Assembly (NCBI GenBank): GCA_017993835.1
Contig: JAGOLX010000002.1
Span: forward strand, 124,001 to 188,000
Origin: Phycisphaerae bacterium
GTDB taxonomy: Bacteria > Planctomycetota > Phycisphaerae > Sedimentisphaerales > Anaerobacaceae
DNA: 64,000 nt
Direction of reading: 5' to 3'
Shown: positions 1 through 58,030 of the stretch, in pieces
How positions within the stretch are numbered: position 1 is the stretch's first letter
Layout of the letters: the number at the start of each line of letters is the position of its first letter
Notes under the pieces: model-generated
Seen by the model: only the letters and a program-made list of their open reading frames with translations
Told to the model about the DNA's origin: nothing
The model's database searches: none
Program-made: the position numbers and the translations under genes

Positions 1-507
1 CTCGCGGTAGTTGATGGTCTGCCAGTATCCGTAGACCTTGGCGCACGCATAGGGGCTTCGCGGATAGAAGGGCGTGGTTTCCGTCTGGGGGGTCTCGACG
101 ACCTTGCCGAACATCTCGCTGCTGGAGGCTTGGTAGTAGCGTATCGGCGTGTGACAAGAGCGTACCGCCTCAAGCATCCGAAGCGTGCCCAGCCCATCCG
201 CGTTGACGGTGTAGATGGGCATGTCAAAGCTGACTCGTACGTGGCTCTGGGCGCCCAGGTTGTAAACCTCGTCGGGCCTGATGTCGTTGAGGATGGCCGA
301 GAGGTTGCTGCCGTCGGTCAGGTCCCCGTAGACCAGGCGCAACTTGGGCTGCTCGTGCGGGTCGCGGTACAAATGATCGATCCGGTCCGTGTTGAAGGAC
401 GAGCTTCGACGGATGATGCCCCAGACCTCATAGCCCTTCTTCAGCAGCAATTCCGCGAGGTACGAACCGTCCTGCCCTGTGATTCCGGTGATCAGTGCTT
501 TTCGCAT
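1..507 (-). CDS. gmd: GDP-mannose 4,6-dehydratase, partial (3' end outside window)
   Basis: The frame gives 169 residues from an ATG at 507 and runs off the left edge without a stop. The N-terminus has the family NAD(P)-binding signature ([18 protein letters not shown]) followed by [18 protein letters not shown]. Further on are ASSSEMFG and the extended-SDR catalytic Tyr-x3-Lys in [12 protein letters not shown]. The family converts GDP-mannose to GDP-4-keto-6-deoxymannose in the cytosol, the first step of de novo GDP-fucose or GDP-rhamnose synthesis. It lies 41 nt after the fucokinase/pyrophosphorylase gene on the same strand, so both probably belong to one nucleotide-sugar operon. The identification is firm; the C-terminal part is not visible. 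Confidence 0.95.
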
Positions 508-548
508 GAGTTTTCCTCTCGGACGTCTCACCGCAGACATGTGCCTGC

Positions 549-3500
549 TCAGCAGACAGTCACCACCAGTCCCTCGTTGCTGACGGCAAAATCAAAGAAC
601 CGTGCGCGAGCGTTGGGTGGGTCGTCGTCGAGCATGCGTCGCACCGCCGACGCGTCCTCGGGCGATTTGCAGATCAGGAGCATGAATCCGCCGCCGCCGG
701 CGCCGAGGAGCTTGCCGCCGTAGATGTGCGGCCCGACCCGCGCGAACAGGGCCTCGATCTCGTTGTTGCTGCTGTTCGGGTCCAGTTGCTTGTTGAGCCG
801 CCAGGCGACGTCCATGAGCCGACCGAATCGCTCCATGTCCTTGCGGATGAAGGCGTCCATGACCTCCCGGGCCACCGACCCGATGCGTCGGAGCGTCGCC
901 ACTGCGTCGCGATCCCGATTCAGGTACCTTCCGACGACTTGATGGAGGATGTTCTTTGCCAGGCGGGTGATCCCTGTGTAGTACAGCAGGGTGCGACCGC
1001 TGTTGGTGGTCGGGTTCAGGATGTCCGAGGGCACGTAGTGGATGCGCGCGTCCGGGACCAGACCAGGCTCGGCGACGATCATCTTGACGCCGCCCACGGC
1101 GCCGCCGATCTGGTCCTGCCAGCCGCCGCCGGTGGTGAGGGCCTGCTCCAGGCGGAGCACGCTGTGGAACAGCTCCCGCGGCGAGGGCCGTCGGCCCATG
1201 GTCCTGGCCAGCGCCGCGACGATCACGGCGCCCATGATGCTGGACGTCCCGAGTCCGCTGCCCTTGGGGATCGCCGCCAGGGTCGTCAGTTCGATGCCGC
1301 CTCCGAAGGCTTCGAGGGTCTTCTTGAGAGTCTTCTTCCCGCCTCGGCCTCCATTGGGCGCCAGGCCGGAGAGGGCCACCGCTGCTTTCGCCAGGGCGAA
1401 GTTGCTGGTTGGCTCCGGGTAGTCCATCAGCTCCTCGAACTCCCTTACCTCGATACGCACGCCCTGATCGATGGAGCCGATCTGAATGACCGGTTTGTCT
1501 ATCACTCGTACATAGGCTTGAATGGGAGGCTGGCCGTTCAGATCGATGGCGGCGTTGGTGACGCAACCGCCCCATTCGAGGGAATACGGCGGGGTGTCCG
1601 TCCAGCCGCCGCCGATATCGAGCCGGGCGGGGGCTCGCGCCCACACGATCTCGTCGCTTCGCAACACGCTATGTGGAGGGGCGTCGCCTTCGGTTCCGCT
1701 GGCGACGATCACCCGGCCCAGGCCTTCGAACGCCGCATCCTGCATTCGGCCCCGCCATTGGGAGAGAGCGGTCCCGCCGCTGGGGTCCAGACCGATTGGA
1801 CGGAGCCGGTCCCGGGTCGCCGAGTCGAGCATTTCCATCAGACCGGGCAATGCTCGATCCACCGATCTGTCGGCGCCCTTGTATGCCTCGGTCAGGGCCG
1901 AGCCCAACGTGTGGATCACGCGTGGGAACACCAGCGCTGCGGTCCCCTGTCCCTCTTCGTCTGACGAGCATCGACATGCCTGTCTCAGGGTCTCGGCTAC
2001 CCACTGCGCGGGGCGCCGGGCCGTCTTCACGAGCCAGGCGAGTTCTCGCGAGGAGAATCCGCTCTCCGGTCGAAAGGCCCACTGCAGCGAGCTACGGATC
2101 AACTCCGCTCGGATTTGGCTGCGCCGCTCATAGAACGCCTTGTGATCGGCCAGTGCCAGGATCTGTTCGAGACTGTACCGGAGGGTGGACCGCCACGCCT
2201 GTCGCTGATCCTGCGAGGCGCCGGCCGGGTCGAACATCCAGAGCCACTGCCGATACTGCGCGTGTTCGCGGACCGCCGGGAAGAGGCGGGCATTCCAGAT
2301 CGTCCGGTCTTTCGGTCCGACGCTTGCGTCCCAGACCTCCTCCTGGTTTGCCCCGACGTCCGCGAGCCATACAGACAACTCCATGCCGCAGAAGACCGCC
2401 CCTTCGTCGACAGGCACTTTGAAGGCGTCGTCTACGCCGTAGCATCGCACGAACCAGACGTTGCGACCCGTTGCGTCGCGTCCGCCGATTACGTCGAGAC
2501 ACGCGCCGGTCGGCAGGGAGACCGGCTCCTCCAGATCGACGCCGACCACGACGTTGTTGCCGCCCAGAGTCAGCGACGAGCGAATTCGGCATCCCTCGAC
2601 CCAGCTCGCGGATCCTTGTACCGACCCCTCCACGGCGATCTCGTTGTTGATGTCGAGGAAGGTCCGCAGTTGCGAGACGCCGCGATCCTCCTGGAGCAGG
2701 CGGGCGCCGCTGCTGAGGATTCCCCGACTGGCCCCGAAATCCAGAAAATCGCAGCGGGAAAGCAATTGCACGTTGAAAGGGATGCTCGACAGGGCCTTGA
2801 ATAGATCGCCCAGCATGGCGGGTGTCCATCGAGATCCGCTGTCCCGCGCCGAGCGGACATGGTGATCGGCGGTTGCCTCCGTGCCCATGGCGCAGCAGAT
2901 CTCGCGATAGAAATCCAATCCGCGATCCATGACGGCCTGTCCGCGTTTACCCGTCAGGACGAGCTTTCCGCGAGCGTCGGCTCTGGCGTCGAACAACTGC
3001 AGGAGCCGGACCGCGGTGGCGGCGTCGAAGTGCATCACGCCGATGTCGAGACACGACTGGCCGTAGGAGTCGATTGCGCCCTGTTTCCTCTGCTCGGCAA
3101 TGGGAGGTTTCTGGAGGTACCGTTTGACCTGATCGTCCTGGCCACGGCAGAAGACGCCGTGGCGGCTTGCCTGCTCCGGCTGGGCGTAACACGCCAGGCC
3201 GGTGATGCCGCTTCTCGTGAACCGAACGCTCGTCGGGTCGAATCGCAGCAGGACGTCGCCCGAGGTGATGACGATCTGCCCGCATCCAGGCGCCGACGCC
3301 GGCAGGGCCAGGTACGTCGGCAACTGGCGGTCGAACAGGCTCAGGCAGACGGCGCTGTCGTTCTCGCCCGGTACCGGGATGAAGATCTTCCCGCAGGGGC
3401 CGTAAGCCGGCAGGCGCCGAGAATCGCCGCCTGCATGGACGATGAGGATGCGAAGCTCGCTCAGCGTCCGTTCCCACGCTCGCGGGTCCGATTTCGTCAG

Positions 3501-8663: not shown

Positions 8664-11033
8664 CTACTTCTTCGCCGCGACGGCTTTTTCGCCCTTGATT
8701 TCGTTGAGGATCTCCTGGGCCCGTTGCGGATCCTTGGGCGGCCATTCGCCTGCGGCCTGGAGCTCCTTGAGCCGGTCGATCCCCTTGGCACTGACGATGG
8801 TTCGGCACCGCGGGAACTTGTTGCACCCGAGGAATGGGCCTCGCTTGCTCTTGCGGATGACCAGTTCGCCGGTCTTGCACTTGTGGCACTTGATTCCCGT
8901 CGATTCGGCCGGCGGTTTCGGCGGCAGTGGGTTGCCTTCCTTGTCCAGCCGCAACGTCGTCTTGCACGTCGGGTAGTCGCTGCACCCGAGGAAGGCGCCG
9001 AACCGACCGTTCTTGCGGATCATCGGCTTGCCGCAGTTCGGGCACTTGTGCTCGCTGACTTCGTCTTTCATCATCTTGCCCTCTTTGTCGCAAGGGCAGG
9101 CGAACTTGCACTCGGGATACCCCGAGCAGCTCAGGAACTTGCCGTTCTTGCCGAACTTGTACATGAGCTGCCGGCCGCAGTCCGGGCAGTTGTACTCGCT
9201 GGGTGTGGCTTCCGCCTTCGCGTGCTTCATCTCCGCAGTGGCCGTCGCGAGATTGGCCTTGAACGGACCGTAGAACTCCTGGAGAACGCGGACCCAGTCG
9301 AGATGCTGTTCCTCGATCCGGTCGAGTTGCTCTTCCATCTGGCGGGTGAACGCGATGTCCATGATCCGCGGGAAGTACTCGTCGAGCTTGGTTGTTACGA
9401 CCTCGCCCAGGTCGGTGGCGAAGAACTTACGGTCCTTCTGCTCCACGTAGCCGCGATCCTGGATCGTACTGATGATCGGCGCATAAGTGCTCGGCCGGCC
9501 GATCCCTTCCTTCTCCAACGCCTTCACCAGCGAGGCTTCCGTGTATCGGGCGGGCGGTTTCGTGAAGTGCTGCTCGGCCTCGATGTCCACGGTGGCGAGC
9601 GACTGGCCCACCTGGGTGGGCGGGAGCTGCTGCTCGCTCGATCCGGTCTGCCAGACCCTGCTGTAGCCGTCGAAGACGAGACTCCGTCCCGCGGCCTTGT
9701 ACAGAGCTGTCCCGACGCTGGTTGGCGTGGTGATGTTCAATGTGGTAACGTTCCAGCGGGCCGGTTCCATCTGACAGGCGACGAAACGGCGCCAGATGAG
9801 GTCATAGAGCTTGAACTGCTCCTCGTTGAGGTGCTCGCGGATCTCCTGCGGCGTCAGATCGACGTCCGTGGGACGGATGGCCTCGTGGGCCTGCTGCGCG
9901 GATTTCTTGTCCGCGTAGAAGTTGGGCTTCTCCGGCAGATACGTGGGCCCGAAGTGGCTCTGGATGTAGTTGCGGACCTCGCCCAGGGCCTCGCCGGACA
10001 GGTGCGTGCTGTCGGTTCGCATGTAGGTGATCAGACCGAGCGAACCCATCGAGCCCAGGTCGATGCCTTCGTAGAGCTGCTGGGCGACCGCCATCGTCCG
10101 CTTGGCGGTGAAACCCAGACGGTTGGCTGCTGCCTGCTGCAACGTCGACGTGATGAACGGCGGCGACGCCTTCGACGTGGATTCCTTCGTCTCGATCTCC
10201 GCGATCTTGAACTGTGCGTTCTGGAGTTCGCGGAAGACCTTCTGGGCATCCTGCTCGTTGGCGGCGTTGAATCTCTGGTCGCCGATCTTGGACAGCTCCG
10301 CCTTGAAGGCGTTGCGCTGGGCCAGCCAATCGCTCTGCTGCTCGATGGTGGGAGCCTTGCCGTCGGGGGTCCTGGGTGTGACGAAATCGATCCACTGCTG
10401 GTGGTAGTTGGCGTTCAGGTCGGTGGTGAAGACCGCAGGGATCAGCCAGTACTCCTCCGGCTTGAACGCGCGGATCTCCCTTTCCCGCTCGACGATGATC
10501 TTGACCGCGACGGACTGCACGCGACCGGCGGACAGGCCCCGCGTGACCTTCTTCCACAACAGCGGGCTGATCTCGTACCCCACGATCCGGTCGAGCACGC
10601 GGCGCGCCTGCTGGGCCATGACCTTGTCCGTATCGATCCGACCGGGATCGGCGAATGCCTCTTTGATCGCGGTCTTCGTGATCGCGTTGAAGATGACCCG
10701 GTAGGTGCGGTCCTCGGGGACGCCCAAGACTTGCGCGAGGTGCCAGGCGATCGCCTCGCCCTCGCGGTCAAGGTCTGTCGCCAGGTACAGCTTGTCGCAC
10801 TTCTTGGCGGCCGCCTTCAGTTGGGTGACGACGCGCTTCTTGCCCGGCATGATGTCGTAGGTGGGTTCGAAGTTGTTCTCGATGTTCACGTTCAAGCCCT
10901 TCGAGGGCAGATCGCGAATGTGACCCATCGAGGCATGGACCTCATAGTCGGGACCCAGGTATCTATTGATCGTCTTGGCCTTCGCGGGCGACTCGACGAT
11001 AACGAGCGATTTGTGCGAATTCGATTTTGCCAT
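8664..11033 (-). CDS. topA: DNA topoisomerase I (type IA)
   Basis: A 789-residue omega protein. The TOPRIM domain is at the N-terminus (SLVIVESPAKAKTINRYLG, and ATDLDREGEAIAWHL with the acidic metal-binding residues). The catalytic tyrosine is in GLITYMRTDST at about residue 334. The C-terminus carries three four-cysteine zinc ribbons starting near residues 613 (CPDCGRQLMYKFGKNG), 661 (CPNCGKPMIRKNGRFG) and 714 (CHKCKTGELVIRKSKRG). It relaxes negative supercoils and is essential in most bacteria. The start at 11033 has AAGGA about 9 nt upstream. It is separated from the ATPase gene by 84 nt and may be read with it. The identification is secure. Confidence 0.97.
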   Translation of the reverse strand: MAKSNSHKSLVIVESPAKAKTINRYLGPDYEVHASMGHIRDLPSKGLNVNIENNFEPTYDIMPGKKRVVTQLKAAAKKCDKLYLATDLDREGEAIAWHLAQVLGVPEDRTYRVIFNAITKTAIKEAFADPGRIDTDKVMAQQARRVLDRIVGYEISPLLWKKVTRGLSAGRVQSVAVKIIVEREREIRAFKPEEYWLIPAVFTTDLNANYHQQWIDFVTPRTPDGKAPTIEQQSDWLAQRNAFKAELSKIGDQRFNAANEQDAQKVFRELQNAQFKIAEIETKESTSKASPPFITSTLQQAAANRLGFTAKRTMAVAQQLYEGIDLGSMGSLGLITYMRTDSTHLSGEALGEVRNYIQSHFGPTYLPEKPNFYADKKSAQQAHEAIRPTDVDLTPQEIREHLNEEQFKLYDLIWRRFVACQMEPARWNVTTLNITTPTSVGTALYKAAGRSLVFDGYSRVWQTGSSEQQLPPTQVGQSLATVDIEAEQHFTKPPARYTEASLVKALEKEGIGRPSTYAPIISTIQDRGYVEQKDRKFFATDLGEVVTTKLDEYFPRIMDIAFTRQMEEQLDRIEEQHLDWVRVLQEFYGPFKANLATATAEMKHAKAEATPSEYNCPDCGRQLMYKFGKNGKFLSCSGYPECKFACPCDKEGKMMKDEVSEHKCPNCGKPMIRKNGRFGAFLGCSDYPTCKTTLRLDKEGNPLPPKPPAESTGIKCHKCKTGELVIRKSKRGPFLGCNKFPRCRTIVSAKGIDRLKELQAAGEWPPKDPQRAQEILNEIKGEKAVAAKK

Positions 11034-45887: not shown

Positions 45888-45952
45888 GACACACCTTCAC
45901 AGGAACAAGCCATCCTTCGACAGGGCTGATTCGCACGCGAGCGAGGATGCCC

Positions 45953-47863
45953 ATGTCCAAGGAGACAAATGGGAAGGGGAGAGTCGGTCCGGCCAAAGGT
46001 GATTTTGTCACGCCGCCTGACGTGCCGGAAACTGACGAGCGTGCGGATGCGCTGCCCGCACAAGAGGAATTCTGGCGACCGCCCGCACGATTCGGAAGCG
46101 TGCCGGTCGAGAAGGAACCACTGGGCTGGGATCGTCGCAAGGGGTACCGCAAGCTCTTCCCGCAGGTCATGTTACCGTTCCAGGTGGTCGAGCGCGTTCA
46201 GTTCGGGCACCCCGACCTGGAACCGAATCGCCTCTTCTGGGGTGACAACCTTCACGTCATGCGCCAACTACCCAGTGAGAGTATTGATCTGATCTACATT
46301 GACCCGCCATTCTTCTCGGGCCGGCAGTACAACGTCATCTTTGGCGACCAGAACGAACTACGCTCGTTCTCCGACATCTGGGAGGGCGGCATGCCCGGAT
46401 ACCTCATCTGGCTCAACGCCCGCCTCTACGAGATGAAACGCCTGCTCAAGAGGACGGGCAGTATCTATGTGCATTGTGACTGGCACGCCAGCCACTACAT
46501 CAAGGCCGAGATGGATAGGATCCTCGGTTTCGATAACTTCCGGAATGAGATCATATGGCATTACGAGAAGTGGACGGCTAACTCGCGGAGTCTTCAGAAG
46601 AACCATGACGTCATCTTGTTCTACTCCCGGACCGACAACTGGACGTTCAATATCCAGAAGGAGGTTACCGAGAATCTGGCCGAGAAGCATAAGAAGGGGT
46701 ATTTGATTGGCGGTGGTTATGGTTCGACAGGACTTGTTGTCTATGACCGCAATCATCCGGACGCCAAAGAGAAGATAGAATCGGGAAAGTATAACGTAGT
46801 CTATGCCGATAAGGAGGGGAAGCCATTGAGCGACGTGTTTCGGATTCCTTTCATCAATCCAGTTGCTAAAGAACGCATAGGATATCCAACACAAAAGCCC
46901 GAGAGGCTTCTCGAGCGCATTGTACTTCTTGGCAGCAATGAAGGGGATGTCGTGGCCGACTTCTTTGCCGGAGGGGGTACGTCCGCGTCCGTCGCTCAAC
47001 GTCTTGGTCGCCGTTGGATCGCCTGCGACCAATCCCGTGTGGCAGTGGCGATCACCGCCGATCGGCTGACGCGACAGGTGGAGGAGCACGTCGGCAAGTT
47101 ATTCCGCGTGCCAGACTTCACGGTCGAGCATTGGGGTGTGTACGAAGCCAAGCGGCTGGGCGAAGCACCGCGCGAACAGTTTCGTGCCTTTGTCTTGAAA
47201 TGCTTCGGGGCAGCGATAGAGGAAAGCGAAGAGGGCATCCACGGCTACAAAGGCGCGATTCCGGTTTGGGTCGGCGAGCCGGATCAGAAGAAGAGCGTGA
47301 CAGCGCCGAACGTGCAGGCATTCGCCAACGCCATTCGCAAGACCTTGCGATACAAACAGGACAACCTCCGTGACGGCATCATGCTGGCCTGGGCCTTTCG
47401 TCTCGATGCGATGGAGGCAGCGGAGCGACTGAGGCGACTGGAACGGACAGACCTGAACTTCATCCGTCTGGATACGATTCGTATCGATTCCCTGCGTTTC
47501 CGCGAGCATGTGACGGCCCTTTCGACAGACCACGCCGACTATGAAAACTTCCTGACTTTCGTTCAGCCGCCTAGGGTGGAGGTGGGCTACAAGCGTATTT
47601 TGCTTCGTACCTACAAATTCGACGTGAGCGAGACGGTAGTCCTGAACCCCGGTGGCAGGATCATCAACGTACAATGGGACTTCGATTACGACAGGCGGTT
47701 CAGCAGCACGCCCGGCTATTCCTTTGCGCGCGGCAGCAAAAAGGAACCGGTGCTCCAAGTGCAATACGAATTCCCATCAGAGGGCAAACAGCGGATCGCC
47801 TGCAAGGTGCAAGATGACATGGGCGGCGAGGGGCTGTGGACAGCCGAGATTGAGGTGAGTTGA
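45953..47863 (+). CDS. Type III-like DNA methyltransferase (Mod)
   Basis: 636 residues, beta-class N6-adenine or N4-cytosine methyltransferase. The catalytic motif comes first (IDPPFFSGRQYN, D117-P-P-F) and the S-adenosylmethionine motif later (DFFAGGGTS, about 336-344), with TQKPERLLERIV between them. The segment between the motifs, about 200-320, should hold target recognition and is visibly more AT-rich at the DNA level (about 46550-46980). It would protect the recognition site and give the helicase/nuclease subunits their specificity. The ATG at 45953 has GAGG 6 nt upstream; an ATG two codons earlier is alternative. The next gene begins 3 nt after its stop, so the operon is tightly coupled. 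Confidence 0.88.
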   Translation: MSKETNGKGRVGPAKGDFVTPPDVPETDERADALPAQEEFWRPPARFGSVPVEKEPLGWDRRKGYRKLFPQVMLPFQVVERVQFGHPDLEPNRLFWGDNLHVMRQLPSESIDLIYIDPPFFSGRQYNVIFGDQNELRSFSDIWEGGMPGYLIWLNARLYEMKRLLKRTGSIYVHCDWHASHYIKAEMDRILGFDNFRNEIIWHYEKWTANSRSLQKNHDVILFYSRTDNWTFNIQKEVTENLAEKHKKGYLIGGGYGSTGLVVYDRNHPDAKEKIESGKYNVVYADKEGKPLSDVFRIPFINPVAKERIGYPTQKPERLLERIVLLGSNEGDVVADFFAGGGTSASVAQRLGRRWIACDQSRVAVAITADRLTRQVEEHVGKLFRVPDFTVEHWGVYEAKRLGEAPREQFRAFVLKCFGAAIEESEEGIHGYKGAIPVWVGEPDQKKSVTAPNVQAFANAIRKTLRYKQDNLRDGIMLAWAFRLDAMEAAERLRRLERTDLNFIRLDTIRIDSLRFREHVTALSTDHADYENFLTFVQPPRVEVGYKRILLRTYKFDVSETVVLNPGGRIINVQWDFDYDRRFSSTPGYSFARGSKKEPVLQVQYEFPSEGKQRIACKVQDDMGGEGLWTAEIEVS

Positions 47864-47866
47864 CCC

Positions 47867-49885
47867 ATGTTCAATCAGTTTGCGAAATACGAGGATGCCT
47901 TTGGAGACTGGCGCCGGGATGGAATGCCACGTTTGAAGGCTGACTCGTACAAGTACATCGAGTTTCTTACGTCTCCCGACGATGAACAGGCGGCGAGACC
48001 GGGCACGCTCTGGCCACATCAGTGGGAATCCTTCCTGCGCGTGGTCTACGCTCACGAGGTTCTGGGCAAGGCCGAAATCGGAGCAGATGGGCTCCTACTG
48101 AACATCGTGACAGGCGGCGGCAAGACGGCAGTGATTGCGGCAGTCGTCGCATGGCTGCGGATCGCCCATAACATCCAGAAATTCGCGATGCTTTGCCCGA
48201 ATCTTATCGTGCGTGACCGGTTGGAGGACGATTTCCAAGGAGGTAAGGTCTTCAAGGACCGCGACCTTCTGCCGGCGTGGACGGCCTACCGCGCCGAGGA
48301 CTTCATTCTGACGACGCTGGGCAGCGGCAAAGAAGGCGGCTGGGCCAGCCTGCTCAGTGCCAGCATCGTGCTCGGCAACATCCACCAGTTCTACTTGAGC
48401 AACAAGAGTGGCCAGAGCAACCTGTCGGCGTTGATGAACGGTCCACAATTTGCCCTGTTCAATGACGAAGCGCACAACTCCCCCGCGGCGGAATATGATG
48501 CCACGTTGAAACGAATGCGTGAGAAGATCATCCTGCGGGTGGACACCACGGCCACGCCCGATCGGGCCGATGGCAGGGCTCCTGACAGCGAGATGATCTA
48601 CGAGTATGGTGTGACCGATGCTCTGGCCGACGGGATTGTGAAGACCCCCGTGGTCTACCAGCCAGACATCAAGACAGTGCAGTTGACCTATAGCGATGCT
48701 CGCACCGGTGAAAAGCGTAAAGTTGAAGAGATTGATTGGGATGAAGTGGATCGACTGGGGCTGAACGCCACACAGTGGGTGACGGACGACGAGCCGATGC
48801 GCCAACAAATGGCCATCGCGCTACGTCGCCTTGAGGAGCAAGAACGGCGGGCCAAAGGACGATACCAGCCGATCCTCTTCGTCGTGGCCGTGTGCAAGGC
48901 CGATGCCGAGAAGGCCGAGCAAACACTGAGCAAGTACTTCAAGGTCAGAACCCTGCTCGTGACAGAGGATAGCGATGAAGCAGACCGGCAGAAGGCCCGC
49001 GAACTCGGCAGGCAACAGAAGAGTGGCAAGCCCTACCGAGCCGTGGTCAGCGTGCTCATGCTGCGTGAGGGCTGGGACGTGCCGGAGGTGGGTGTCATCC
49101 TTCTGTTACGCAAGTTCGGGAGCAAGGTCTACGGACAACAAGTGGTCGGCCGTGGCCTGAGACGAGTGCGAGTCAAGGGTGTCGAGTCAACTGAACCGCA
49201 GATTTGCGCTGTAGTTGATCATCCCAAGTTGGATCATCAATGGCTGTGGGACATCTTCAACGCCAAGAAGCGCACCGGCGTTCTGATCGATGACCTTTTC
49301 GATGAGACGGAAGATCTTCCGACGCCCCCGCCGAAGCAGGAACTTGCGAGACCGGATCTGGTGATCGACGTGCCCCCGGCGGATTCTTCAGCAGTAGATG
49401 ATGAGGAGTTTGACGTGGGGAATATCCCGGCGCCACCGAAGCCGATTGAAGACTGGCGAAAGGTGTTGGACGGTATCGCATATGATCCGACAGTAATTGA
49501 AATCACGAAGGTCGGGATTACGGGTGTGGTTGGCAAGGAACTGGGCGGCGAAGGCTGGAAGACCATCCACTCTGCTCCAGACGCGAACCAGCCGGTTGGG
49601 ACAGTTGCGCAGGCAACCGATGAAGCGGTGCGAGAGGCAGTGAAGGAGGGACTGCTTGAGATCGCCGAAACCCTGACAGTTGAGGCGGGCTATGCAGCAG
49701 CGTTCAAGGACAAAGTCTATAGTGCATTACTCCACCACTGTCGGGCCAAGTTTCTCAATGGTTCTTCGTTAGGCTTAGCGGAACGTGCAGAAGTCGATTT
49801 TGCATGGAAGATGCTCCAACAAGTGAAAACCAGAGTCGGAGCCATCCCGGGGTTAACGGCGGGGATCATCGAATATGGCGACTAG
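47867..49885 (+). CDS. Type III-like restriction helicase subunit (Res without nuclease domain)
   Basis: 672 residues, superfamily 2 helicase. Walker A is LLNIVTGGGKTAVIAAV (GGGKT about 82-86), and the Walker B box is FNDEAHNSPA (DEAH about 199-202). SVLMLREGWDVPEV and VVGRGLRRVR are helicase motifs V and VI. Type III Res proteins are about 900-1000 residues and end in a PD-(D/E)XK nuclease domain. Here the C-terminus (after ~500) shows no such motif and the protein is about 300 residues short; the nuclease is the next gene, which overlaps it by 11 nt. It presumably translocates on DNA after Mod binds a site. Confidence 0.87.
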   Translation: MFNQFAKYEDAFGDWRRDGMPRLKADSYKYIEFLTSPDDEQAARPGTLWPHQWESFLRVVYAHEVLGKAEIGADGLLLNIVTGGGKTAVIAAVVAWLRIAHNIQKFAMLCPNLIVRDRLEDDFQGGKVFKDRDLLPAWTAYRAEDFILTTLGSGKEGGWASLLSASIVLGNIHQFYLSNKSGQSNLSALMNGPQFALFNDEAHNSPAAEYDATLKRMREKIILRVDTTATPDRADGRAPDSEMIYEYGVTDALADGIVKTPVVYQPDIKTVQLTYSDARTGEKRKVEEIDWDEVDRLGLNATQWVTDDEPMRQQMAIALRRLEEQERRAKGRYQPILFVVAVCKADAEKAEQTLSKYFKVRTLLVTEDSDEADRQKARELGRQQKSGKPYRAVVSVLMLREGWDVPEVGVILLLRKFGSKVYGQQVVGRGLRRVRVKGVESTEPQICAVVDHPKLDHQWLWDIFNAKKRTGVLIDDLFDETEDLPTPPPKQELARPDLVIDVPPADSSAVDDEEFDVGNIPAPPKPIEDWRKVLDGIAYDPTVIEITKVGITGVVGKELGGEGWKTIHSAPDANQPVGTVAQATDEAVREAVKEGLLEIAETLTVEAGYAAAFKDKVYSALLHHCRAKFLNGSSLGLAERAEVDFAWKMLQQVKTRVGAIPGLTAGIIEYGD

Positions 49886-50225
49886 CATACACGGCCAATA
49901 CGCAAATCCGAAGAAGAGTCCGTGGAACTATGAGAAGTACCAGAGCGACCTGGAGCGGCGAATGATGGAACGCCTGGATCGTGACCCGCACGTTGCGAAA
50001 TGGATGAAGCGCCACGGTGTCACCATCCCCTGGATCGACGGCCAGAAGCACCAACGACGGTACATCCCGGACTTCTTCGTCGAATATGACAACGGGGACA
50101 AGGCTGTCATCGAAGTGAAGGACCCAAGCAGAATTGACTCCGATGATGTCCAGCGCAAACGGAAGGCCGCTCAGATATGGTGCAAACAGCGGCACATGGA
50201 ATACGTTCTGGCGACAGTGCCATAA
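49875..50225 (+). CDS. Small PD-(D/E)XK nuclease (TnsA-like) of the RM operon
   Basis: 116 residues. The catalytic core is complete: Asp66 in RRYIPDFFVEY, then Glu80 and Lys82 in AVIEVKDPSR, with Glu25 or a neighbour in the N-terminal helix as the likely additional ligand. The layout YIPDF...G...IEVK followed by helices (KRKAAQIWCKQRHMEYVLAT) resembles TnsA-type and short phage-type endonucleases. It overlaps the helicase gene by 11 nt, so synthesis is coupled. I infer it is the cutting subunit missing from the helicase protein. No transposase, TnsB or TnsC gene is nearby, so a Tn7-like origin is not supported. Confidence 0.8.
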   Translation: MATSIHGQYANPKKSPWNYEKYQSDLERRMMERLDRDPHVAKWMKRHGVTIPWIDGQKHQRRYIPDFFVEYDNGDKAVIEVKDPSRIDSDDVQRKRKAAQIWCKQRHMEYVLATVP

Positions 50226-57103: not shown

Positions 57104-58030
57104 TTAGAGGGAATTGTAATCGGTTATGACCCCTAATACTTCAGGCTCTGCGGTGGCCTTAATGTCCGCAATGACCTTCCAGCGACCGGAGGCGGGTCTG
57201 GTCTTGGCCTGATCCAGAGTCTCGCGAATTCTTGACACGGGCTCAATTATGCCAAAATCGAGAGATCTAGTTGTCGCACTGACAAGTCCAAGCAATCTCG
57301 GCCTCGCATTCCCGAGTCTGATTTGATTCATGACTGGACCACCGCTGTTGCCCGGAAACATCCTTGCGTCTATGAGATAGCAGCGTTCCTCAGCAAACTT
57401 CTTTGCGCCATCCACCTCCAGGGTTAGGAACTCATCCCCAGCACCCATTGATATAATGCCGAAACGCCCTATAGGTCTCTGTTCCGACAGTGTGAAACCA
57501 ACCAGAGAGGGAAAGCCAAACACAAGAACCGGTTCTGGCGGCTCAGCATCAACCGAAGGCAATTGGTTGTCTTTCTGCATGTTTGGGTCTGCTGGTTCAT
57601 ATCTGAAGCATTTTGGTACGTGTTTCGTCGGGATACAGATCTTCATGGCGGCGACATCCACAAAATGAGTATCCTCGTCACCCCCACCAGGATGATAGAC
57701 CCAGTCACCATGGGGCAGTTCAAGCACGAATCGTGCAACGTCCCGTGTTTCGTAGTTCTGCAACTGCACGCGCGAGCGCATATTATATCCGGCGCCAACA
57801 ACGTGCCTTGCAGTGACGACAAATATCTCATGGCCAGTACGAACGAAGAAAGCCGTCCCAGTGTGAAGCCGAGTCTGAGGTGTGCCTTGTTTGTTGAGGA
57901 TGGTTTCGATCCCCTCAAGACGTATCACCGCACGAGTCAATTGGCTGTAGAGGGATTCTTGATCGGTGCCAGAGACAACTTCACAACCAAGAGCCAATAC
58001 GAGTAACATGGTGTATGCAGCGCGCGTCAT
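57104..58030 (-). CDS. Secreted trypsin-like serine protease
   Basis: 308 residues. A short signal (TMLLVLALGCEVVSG) may be a lipoprotein signal. The catalytic triad is visible: His in FVVTARHVVGAG, Asp in HFVDVAAMKI and Ser in MFPGNSGGPVMNQ. There is no PDZ domain, so this is not DegP-like. The base composition is more AT-rich than the neighbours. AGGAGAG lies about 7 nt before the ATG. It is flanked by the DUF1593 gene and a gap with a 30-bp palindrome. Its target proteins are unknown. Confidence 0.82.
   Translation of the reverse strand: MTRAAYTMLLVLALGCEVVSGTDQESLYSQLTRAVIRLEGIETILNKQGTPQTRLHTGTAFFVRTGHEIFVVTARHVVGAGYNMRSRVQLQNYETRDVARFVLELPHGDWVYHPGGGDEDTHFVDVAAMKICIPTKHVPKCFRYEPADPNMQKDNQLPSVDAEPPEPVLVFGFPSLVGFTLSEQRPIGRFGIISMGAGDEFLTLEVDGAKKFAEERCYLIDARMFPGNSGGPVMNQIRLGNARPRLLGLVSATTRSLDFGIIEPVSRIRETLDQAKTRPASGRWKVIADIKATAEPEVLGVITDYNSL

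Follow-up and report, generated by a model that had tools for sequence, protein, structure and literature searches.

The locus described here raises the question of whether a Type III-like restriction-modification system can work with a nuclease that is not part of its motor protein, but a small protein in its own right. Type III enzymes have the composition Mod2Res1, methylate one strand of an asymmetric site and perform an ATP-dependent cleavage ~25-27 bp away from it, two inverted sites being required. In the window (i.e. the whole stretch of 64,000 nucleotides from a Phycisphaerae bacterium analysed in this work), the genes for a methyltransferase (Mod), a Res-like translocase (Hel) and a small PD-(D/E)XK protein (Nuc) follow one another (Table 1), and we suggest, with a probability of about 0.82, that they constitute a three-gene Type III-like restriction-modification system endowed with a separate cutting subunit.

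The first-pass annotation had read Mod, the helicase and the small protein as three coupled genes, and this arrangement was confirmed: all the open reading frames are present, with a 3-nt gap between Mod and Hel and an 11-nt overlap between Hel and Nuc, the three genes forming one tight operon. An in-frame ATG at 45953, which was the start adopted by that annotation, represents an alternative start of Mod. The overlap, together with a GGGG stretch ~10 nt upstream, makes a translational coupling of Hel and Nuc likely.

Table 1. Features of the Mod-Hel-Nuc operon (nucleotide positions in the window; residue numbers for features within proteins)
Feature	Position	Strand	Description	Pfam match
Mod	45947..47863	+	638 aa, beta-class DNA amino-methyltransferase	PF01555 (N6_N4_Mtase), 1.2e-45
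Mod motif IV	residue 119		DPPF	
Mod motif I	residue 338		DFFAGGGT	
Mod hypervariable target-recognition region	residues ~190-340		between motifs IV and I	
Hel	47867..49885	+	672 aa, Res-like SF2 translocase (ResIII)	PF04851, 7.2e-13
Hel motifs			TGGGKT, DEAH, TATP, REGWDVP, GRGLR	
Hel stop/Nuc start overlap	49875..49885	+	11 nt (ATGGCGACTAG), +1 frame	
Nuc	49875..50225	+	116 aa, stand-alone PD-(D/E)XK, TnsA-fold	PF08722 (Tn7_TnsA-like_N), 1.9e-12

As in Type III systems, a Res-type SF2 motor is encoded beside Mod, which lies directly 5' of it, at times with inserted genes, and the motifs of the motor are all conserved in 23/23 cases (motif VI with one I/V alternative). What Hel appears to lack, as previously proposed for this locus, is a nuclease of its own. 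A Pfam search of Hel with E-values up to 1 retrieved no nuclease family, and no signal emerged (Prob 0.1-0.2) when residues 436-672 were compared, profile against profile, with Nuc and with the nuclease domain and the spacer of the fused Res; moreover, no conserved (D/E)XK motif was found in the C-terminus, whose conserved polar residues (D451, H452, H457, D475 and H624) form no PD-(D/E)XK pattern. The AF2 model of Hel, for which 25 sequences with 49-94% identity to the query were used, is of low quality (mean pLDDT 56) and covers the C-terminus only in part, its usable portions being limited to residues ~1-160 and ~585-672, with the region 436-580 poorly modelled; the fold comparison of this model supports the SF2 motor only. 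Residues 585-672 are helical (pLDDT ~80-88) and recall the helical spacer located before the nuclease of EcoP15I (PMC4490356). Since the C-terminal region of Hel does not detectably resemble the fused Res spacer, the attachment of the nuclease may differ from that of EcoP15I. The PD-(D/E)XK nuclease, a C-terminal domain of the Res chain in Type III enzymes, is a separate protein here.

The cutting activity would reside in Nuc. Its residues D66, E80 and K82, which had been regarded as intact on inspection of the single sequence, do not vary among 29 homologues, and neither does E27; the four residues represent the putative active site; Nuc displays the core fold, the acidic residue, the PD and the (D/E)XK of the superfamily. 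The AF2 model (pLDDT 92) matched TnsA in Foldseek with a TM of 0.69, far above any other match, and in VIA-align with a Z of 11.4 over 112 residues (1f1z/1t0f, rmsd 2.8-2.9). The TnsA-like nature attributed to the small protein from its sequence agrees with this fold and with the Pfam match reported in Table 1, a second match being to PF19778 RE_endonuc (6.9e-6). A sequence search of the PDB gave no match to Nuc, whereas the fold search did find TnsA. In the transposition of Tn7, TnsA acts together with TnsB. Reading the translations of the open reading frames beside Nuc in the window revealed no transposase, and the core loci carry Hel and Mod instead. One might argue that Nuc is a structure-specific or regulatory nuclease, or an assembly factor, and that Mod and Hel act alone, e.g. 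in replication arrest or epigenetic regulation, given that the TnsA fold is also seen in domains of phage head-completion and homing enzymes. We consider this reading quite unlikely, in that every catalytic residue is kept, fused relatives, which also lie beside Mod, have this domain as their C-terminal nuclease, and the system without Nuc would have no recognisable nuclease.

Concerning the methyltransferase, Mod is of the beta class and, as in Type III enzymes, has its recognition domain between motifs IV and I; its relatives in the PDB include EcoP15I Mod (4zcf_A, E 4.5e-10). The DPPF of motif IV, kept in 23/23 cases, fits either m6A or m4C, because DPPY/F has been reported in m4C Type III Mods (PMC8259958). 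In the comparison with the nearest relative (L005), most of the N-terminal part of Mod is 85-100% identical and Hel is 94% identical, whereas Mod residues 200-300 are only 15-25% identical; the recognition region has a GC content of 0.48 vs 0.565 for the whole Mod. It is the target-recognition region of Mod that is exchanged in this system. The turnover of recognition domains is a familiar trait of Type III Mods. On a viral contig (L069, 323-2824), Mod is interrupted by ~2.5 kb that lie between aligned residues 235 and 237, inside the recognition region.

The scan of genomes with Hel retrieved 30 loci, 29 of which belong to the family (Hel identity 47-94%). They come, mostly as MAGs, from Planctomycetota, Chloroflexi, Verrucomicrobiota, Armatimonadota, Acidobacteriota, Aminicenantes, Omnitrophota, Hydrogenedentes, Nitrospirae, Bacillota, Cyanobacteria, Pseudomonadota, Actinomycetota, Yanofskybacteria and others. 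Nuc is located 3' of Hel in 29/29 family loci (degraded in L031) and Mod 5' of Hel in each of the 25 genome loci where Hel is complete and the upstream sequence long enough. The order Mod-Hel-Nuc was also found in 3/3 viral contigs retrieved with the Nuc alignment, and in L107, L108 and L109 among the five deeper members fetched in full (30-40% identity), no Mod match being detected 5' of Hel on the short contigs of L106 and L110. The co-occurrence of the small nuclease with Mod and the helicase, in a fixed order and in many phyla, is in agreement with what had been predicted from this locus, and these comparisons indicate that the three-piece system is an old and intact one, conserved across a dozen bacterial phyla or more. 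The comparison with L005 (dN/dS 0.042/0.516 for Nuc and 0.031/0.468 for Hel) points to purifying selection on both proteins.

The junction between Hel and Nuc allows two other readings to be weighed. According to the first one, an ordinary single-chain Res was split by a sequencing error or a recent mutation, the small protein being its broken C-terminus. Hel and Nuc do match opposite ends of one REase_III model, a +1 overlap is what a single indel leaves, and a locus inside the fused clade (L112, ~80-nt overlap) probably is such a case. However, in the 28 loci measured, from many phyla, Nuc always starts with its own ATG in the +1 frame, with an overlap of 11 nt in 20 loci and of 14 nt in eight; the split systems form one clade on a long branch (100/99), and the alignment of Hel with the fused Res ends with the helicase core. 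Since the split recurs in dozens of independent assemblies under purifying selection, it is not a chance or assembly frameshift, and we regard a broken Res as scarcely credible. According to the second one, Hel and Nuc are joined in one polypeptide through a programmed +1 ribosomal frameshifting, giving a functionally classical single-chain Res, which might explain why the register is always +1 and the length of the overlap nearly fixed. This also appears very unlikely: all 28 core loci retain the ATG, which frameshifting would not require, and have a purine-rich stretch 5' of it, the deep members L106 and L107 overlap by 4 nt in the other frame, and a slippery motif is not evident by eye.

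Two further features of the split loci deserve mention. The Mod-Hel gap holds extra genes in eight loci (L007, L010, L013, L020, L021, L029, L107 and L108), several of them toxin-antitoxin-like: MNT/HEPN in L013 and a pair resembling it in L020, a PIN protein whose partner had no match in L010 and L021, an HTH/IrrE-type protein with DUF4411 in L007, DUF5131 in L029 and, by eye, a trypsin-like protease in L108 and a membrane protein in L107. This gap seems to be a slot for accessory/addiction genes. Besides, in the divergent split systems L110 (G946, 466-3484) and L111/L095 (G1018) two tandem Nuc-like proteins follow Hel, both keeping PD and (D/E)XK, the second one with a hydrophobic, possibly transmembrane tail.

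Nuc was searched in samples of 392 genomes of the host phylum, 398 of Pseudomonadota and 388 of the phylum of the Verrucomicrobiota locus, and the Nuc of L028 in 380 genomes of the phylum of the Yanofskybacteria locus. Nearly all of the weaker Nuc relatives in these four samples are C-termini of single-chain Res, encoded by open frames of ~900-1000 aa. Those stand-alone copies that were inspected (L037, L038, L070, L082, L084/L096, L097-L100) adjoin a Hel relative, with the exception of two transposon TnsA-like genes (L064 and L076, with a transposase neighbour by eye) and one remnant (L083); short Nuc-like open frames are also present in a few sampled genomes (e.g. G217, G296, G358). Hel and Nuc match positions 119-365 and 737-826, respectively, of the single-chain model PADLOC PDLC03648 REase_III (871 long), and opposite ends of NCBIfam BPTD_3080 (NF046055), where their 80.7 and 40.1 bits are both well below the curated cut-off of 800 bits for full-length membership. 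In profile-profile comparisons Nuc matched the C-terminal nuclease of single-chain Res with Prob 99.5, and Hel the fused Res with Prob 99.8 over the helicase core. These scores indicate that the small Nuc and the C-terminal domain of single-chain Res are homologous; in the single-chain relatives, too, Mod comes first and Res lies 3' of it.

The helicase core yielded a tree (36 rows, 403 columns) in which a long branch with 100/99 support sets the 21 split systems apart, as one helicase clade, from the common fused Res; some of the fused rows are long branches, so that the tree places the exact neighbour of this clade only loosely. The fixed order across phyla and this one clade agree with the earlier suggestion of a distinct subtype, in which a small gene of its own encodes the nuclease. 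The further suggestion that the nuclease is exchangeable was not borne out: the Hel and Nuc distances correlate with r=0.95 (0.84 without two outliers; 0/5000 permutations), therefore the pair is co-inherited, and every split locus has the same TnsA-like family as its nuclease. As for apparent splits outside this clade, L112 looks like a frameshifted fused Res rather than an independent split. The relatives on Leptospira and Priestia plasmids were likewise rejected as further splits, their small proteins matching no nuclease family and their helicases falling outside the group; there, a ~110-aa protein outside any known family comes after a distantly related DEAD/DEAH helicase (L121, 4902-7148; L124, 4953-7160), with a caspase-family gene 5' of the helicase on the Leptospira plasmid, possibly another helicase + small-partner defence system.

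As to its origin, and compatibly with a three-gene system as proposed here, the split might have arisen when a Mod-helicase pair lacking a nuclease recruited a free TnsA-like protein, and not by fission of a fused Res. We can put this forward only tentatively. The Hel spacer is unlike that of fused Res, and a phage homing endonuclease (Moonbeam) scores 67.9 bits against the Nuc profile, compared with ~50-62 for the fused Res nucleases, but the weaker cellular relatives of Nuc in the sampled genomes are nearly all Res C-termini, and the helicase, nuclease and Mod families are the same in split and fused systems; a tree of the Nuc domain (105 columns) did not tell fission from recruitment. Among the phage sequences, the endonuclease of the Bacillus phage Moonbeam carries NUMOD3, and an ORF of an uncultured phage contains a similar nuclease domain (L125, L127).

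The base composition and distribution of the operon bear on how it reached its host. Its GC content (0.55-0.58) and GC3 (0.68-0.71) are below those of the neighbours (~0.64, and GC3 0.80-0.90 in 5/6 genes tested), as expected for an acquired module. No match was found in the ten sampled genomes of the host's order, and the nearest relatives in the helicase-core tree are scattered across phyla. On this basis, the operon looks like a horizontally acquired module and the subtype like a widely transferred one. In L014 a gene for a tyrosine (phage-type) integrase lies directly 3' of Nuc (9486-10544), which suggests that this system is carried on an integrating element. Elsewhere in the window, an ORF at 57104-58030, by eye a trypsin-like serine protease, has a GC content of 0.52 vs ~0.64 for its neighbours and is possibly another recent import.

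If homology to Type III enzymes is a guide, the three proteins might act as follows. The central region of Mod would read an asymmetric site and the enzyme would methylate an amino group on one strand, of adenine or cytosine; on unmethylated DNA, Mod would recruit the Res-like SF2 motor Hel, which would use ATP to enter a moving or sliding state. Nuc, presumably made in step with Hel through the overlapping start codon, would bind Hel, and the break would be made when two complexes meet. The system, even though it deviates from one formal feature of Type III enzymes (the nuclease within Res), very probably works like them. A rather unlikely elaboration of this scheme is that cleavage is a detachable step, with a free Nuc binding only activated (ATP-switched or colliding) motors, possibly in more than one copy per motor. 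If so, recognition and sliding would be possible without a tethered nuclease, and the two different tandem nuclease subunits of G946 could supply both strand cuts from one collision.

Among the closest known systems are the single-chain Res proteins represented by BPTD_3080 and PDLC03648 (~900-950 aa, ResIII plus a C-terminal RE_endonuc or TnsA-like domain), which share a homologous core, the nuclease and a Mod immediately 5', but keep helicase and nuclease on one chain with a different spacer; a literature search for BPTD_3080 returned no paper. The single-chain operons on plasmids, of the type [SNF2]-Mod-Res, have an additional SNF2-type helicase gene 5' of Mod, absent in the window, and recall the group that carries an extra helicase-like gene (PMC8259958). 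EcoP15I (Mod2Res1; PMC4490356) has in common with this system a beta-class Mod with the recognition domain between motifs IV and I, an SF2 Res-like motor with a helical part after it and the PD-(D/E)XK chemistry, but its nuclease sits at the C-terminus of Res as a flexibly tethered domain, in contrast with the separate 116-aa protein found here. The m4C Type III systems Eco86II and BspHIV are also three-gene operons with Mod and Res, whose third gene, however, codes for an extra helicase-like ATPase, Res keeping the nuclease (PMC8259958), whereas the third gene of the present operon is the nuclease itself. A precedent for ATP-dependent restriction with separate nuclease and helicase-like proteins and a methyltransferase gene is given by CglI and NgoAVII (PMC5737866, PMC4267653), whose nuclease belongs to the PLD family and has its own B3 DNA-recognition domain; Nuc, in contrast, is a minimal PD-(D/E)XK protein devoid of such a domain. 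Tn7 TnsA (1f1z, 1t0f) has the same nuclease fold as the Nuc model.

No published description of the Mod-Hel-Nuc split was found in the open-access literature, which excludes REBASE and most subscription journals, and we propose it as a subtype of Type III-like restriction-modification whose nuclease is a subunit apart, apparently undescribed in that literature. Annotation tools register it only as partial matches, Hel and Nuc each matching one end of a single-chain model. In the EcoP15I structure the nuclease is tethered to the motor and disordered (PMC4490356), so that what triggers the cut after sliding is hard to test. With a natural, separate 13-kDa nuclease, the cutter can be added, omitted, titrated or mutated apart from recognition and sliding, and this gives a direct test of whether two nucleases must meet.
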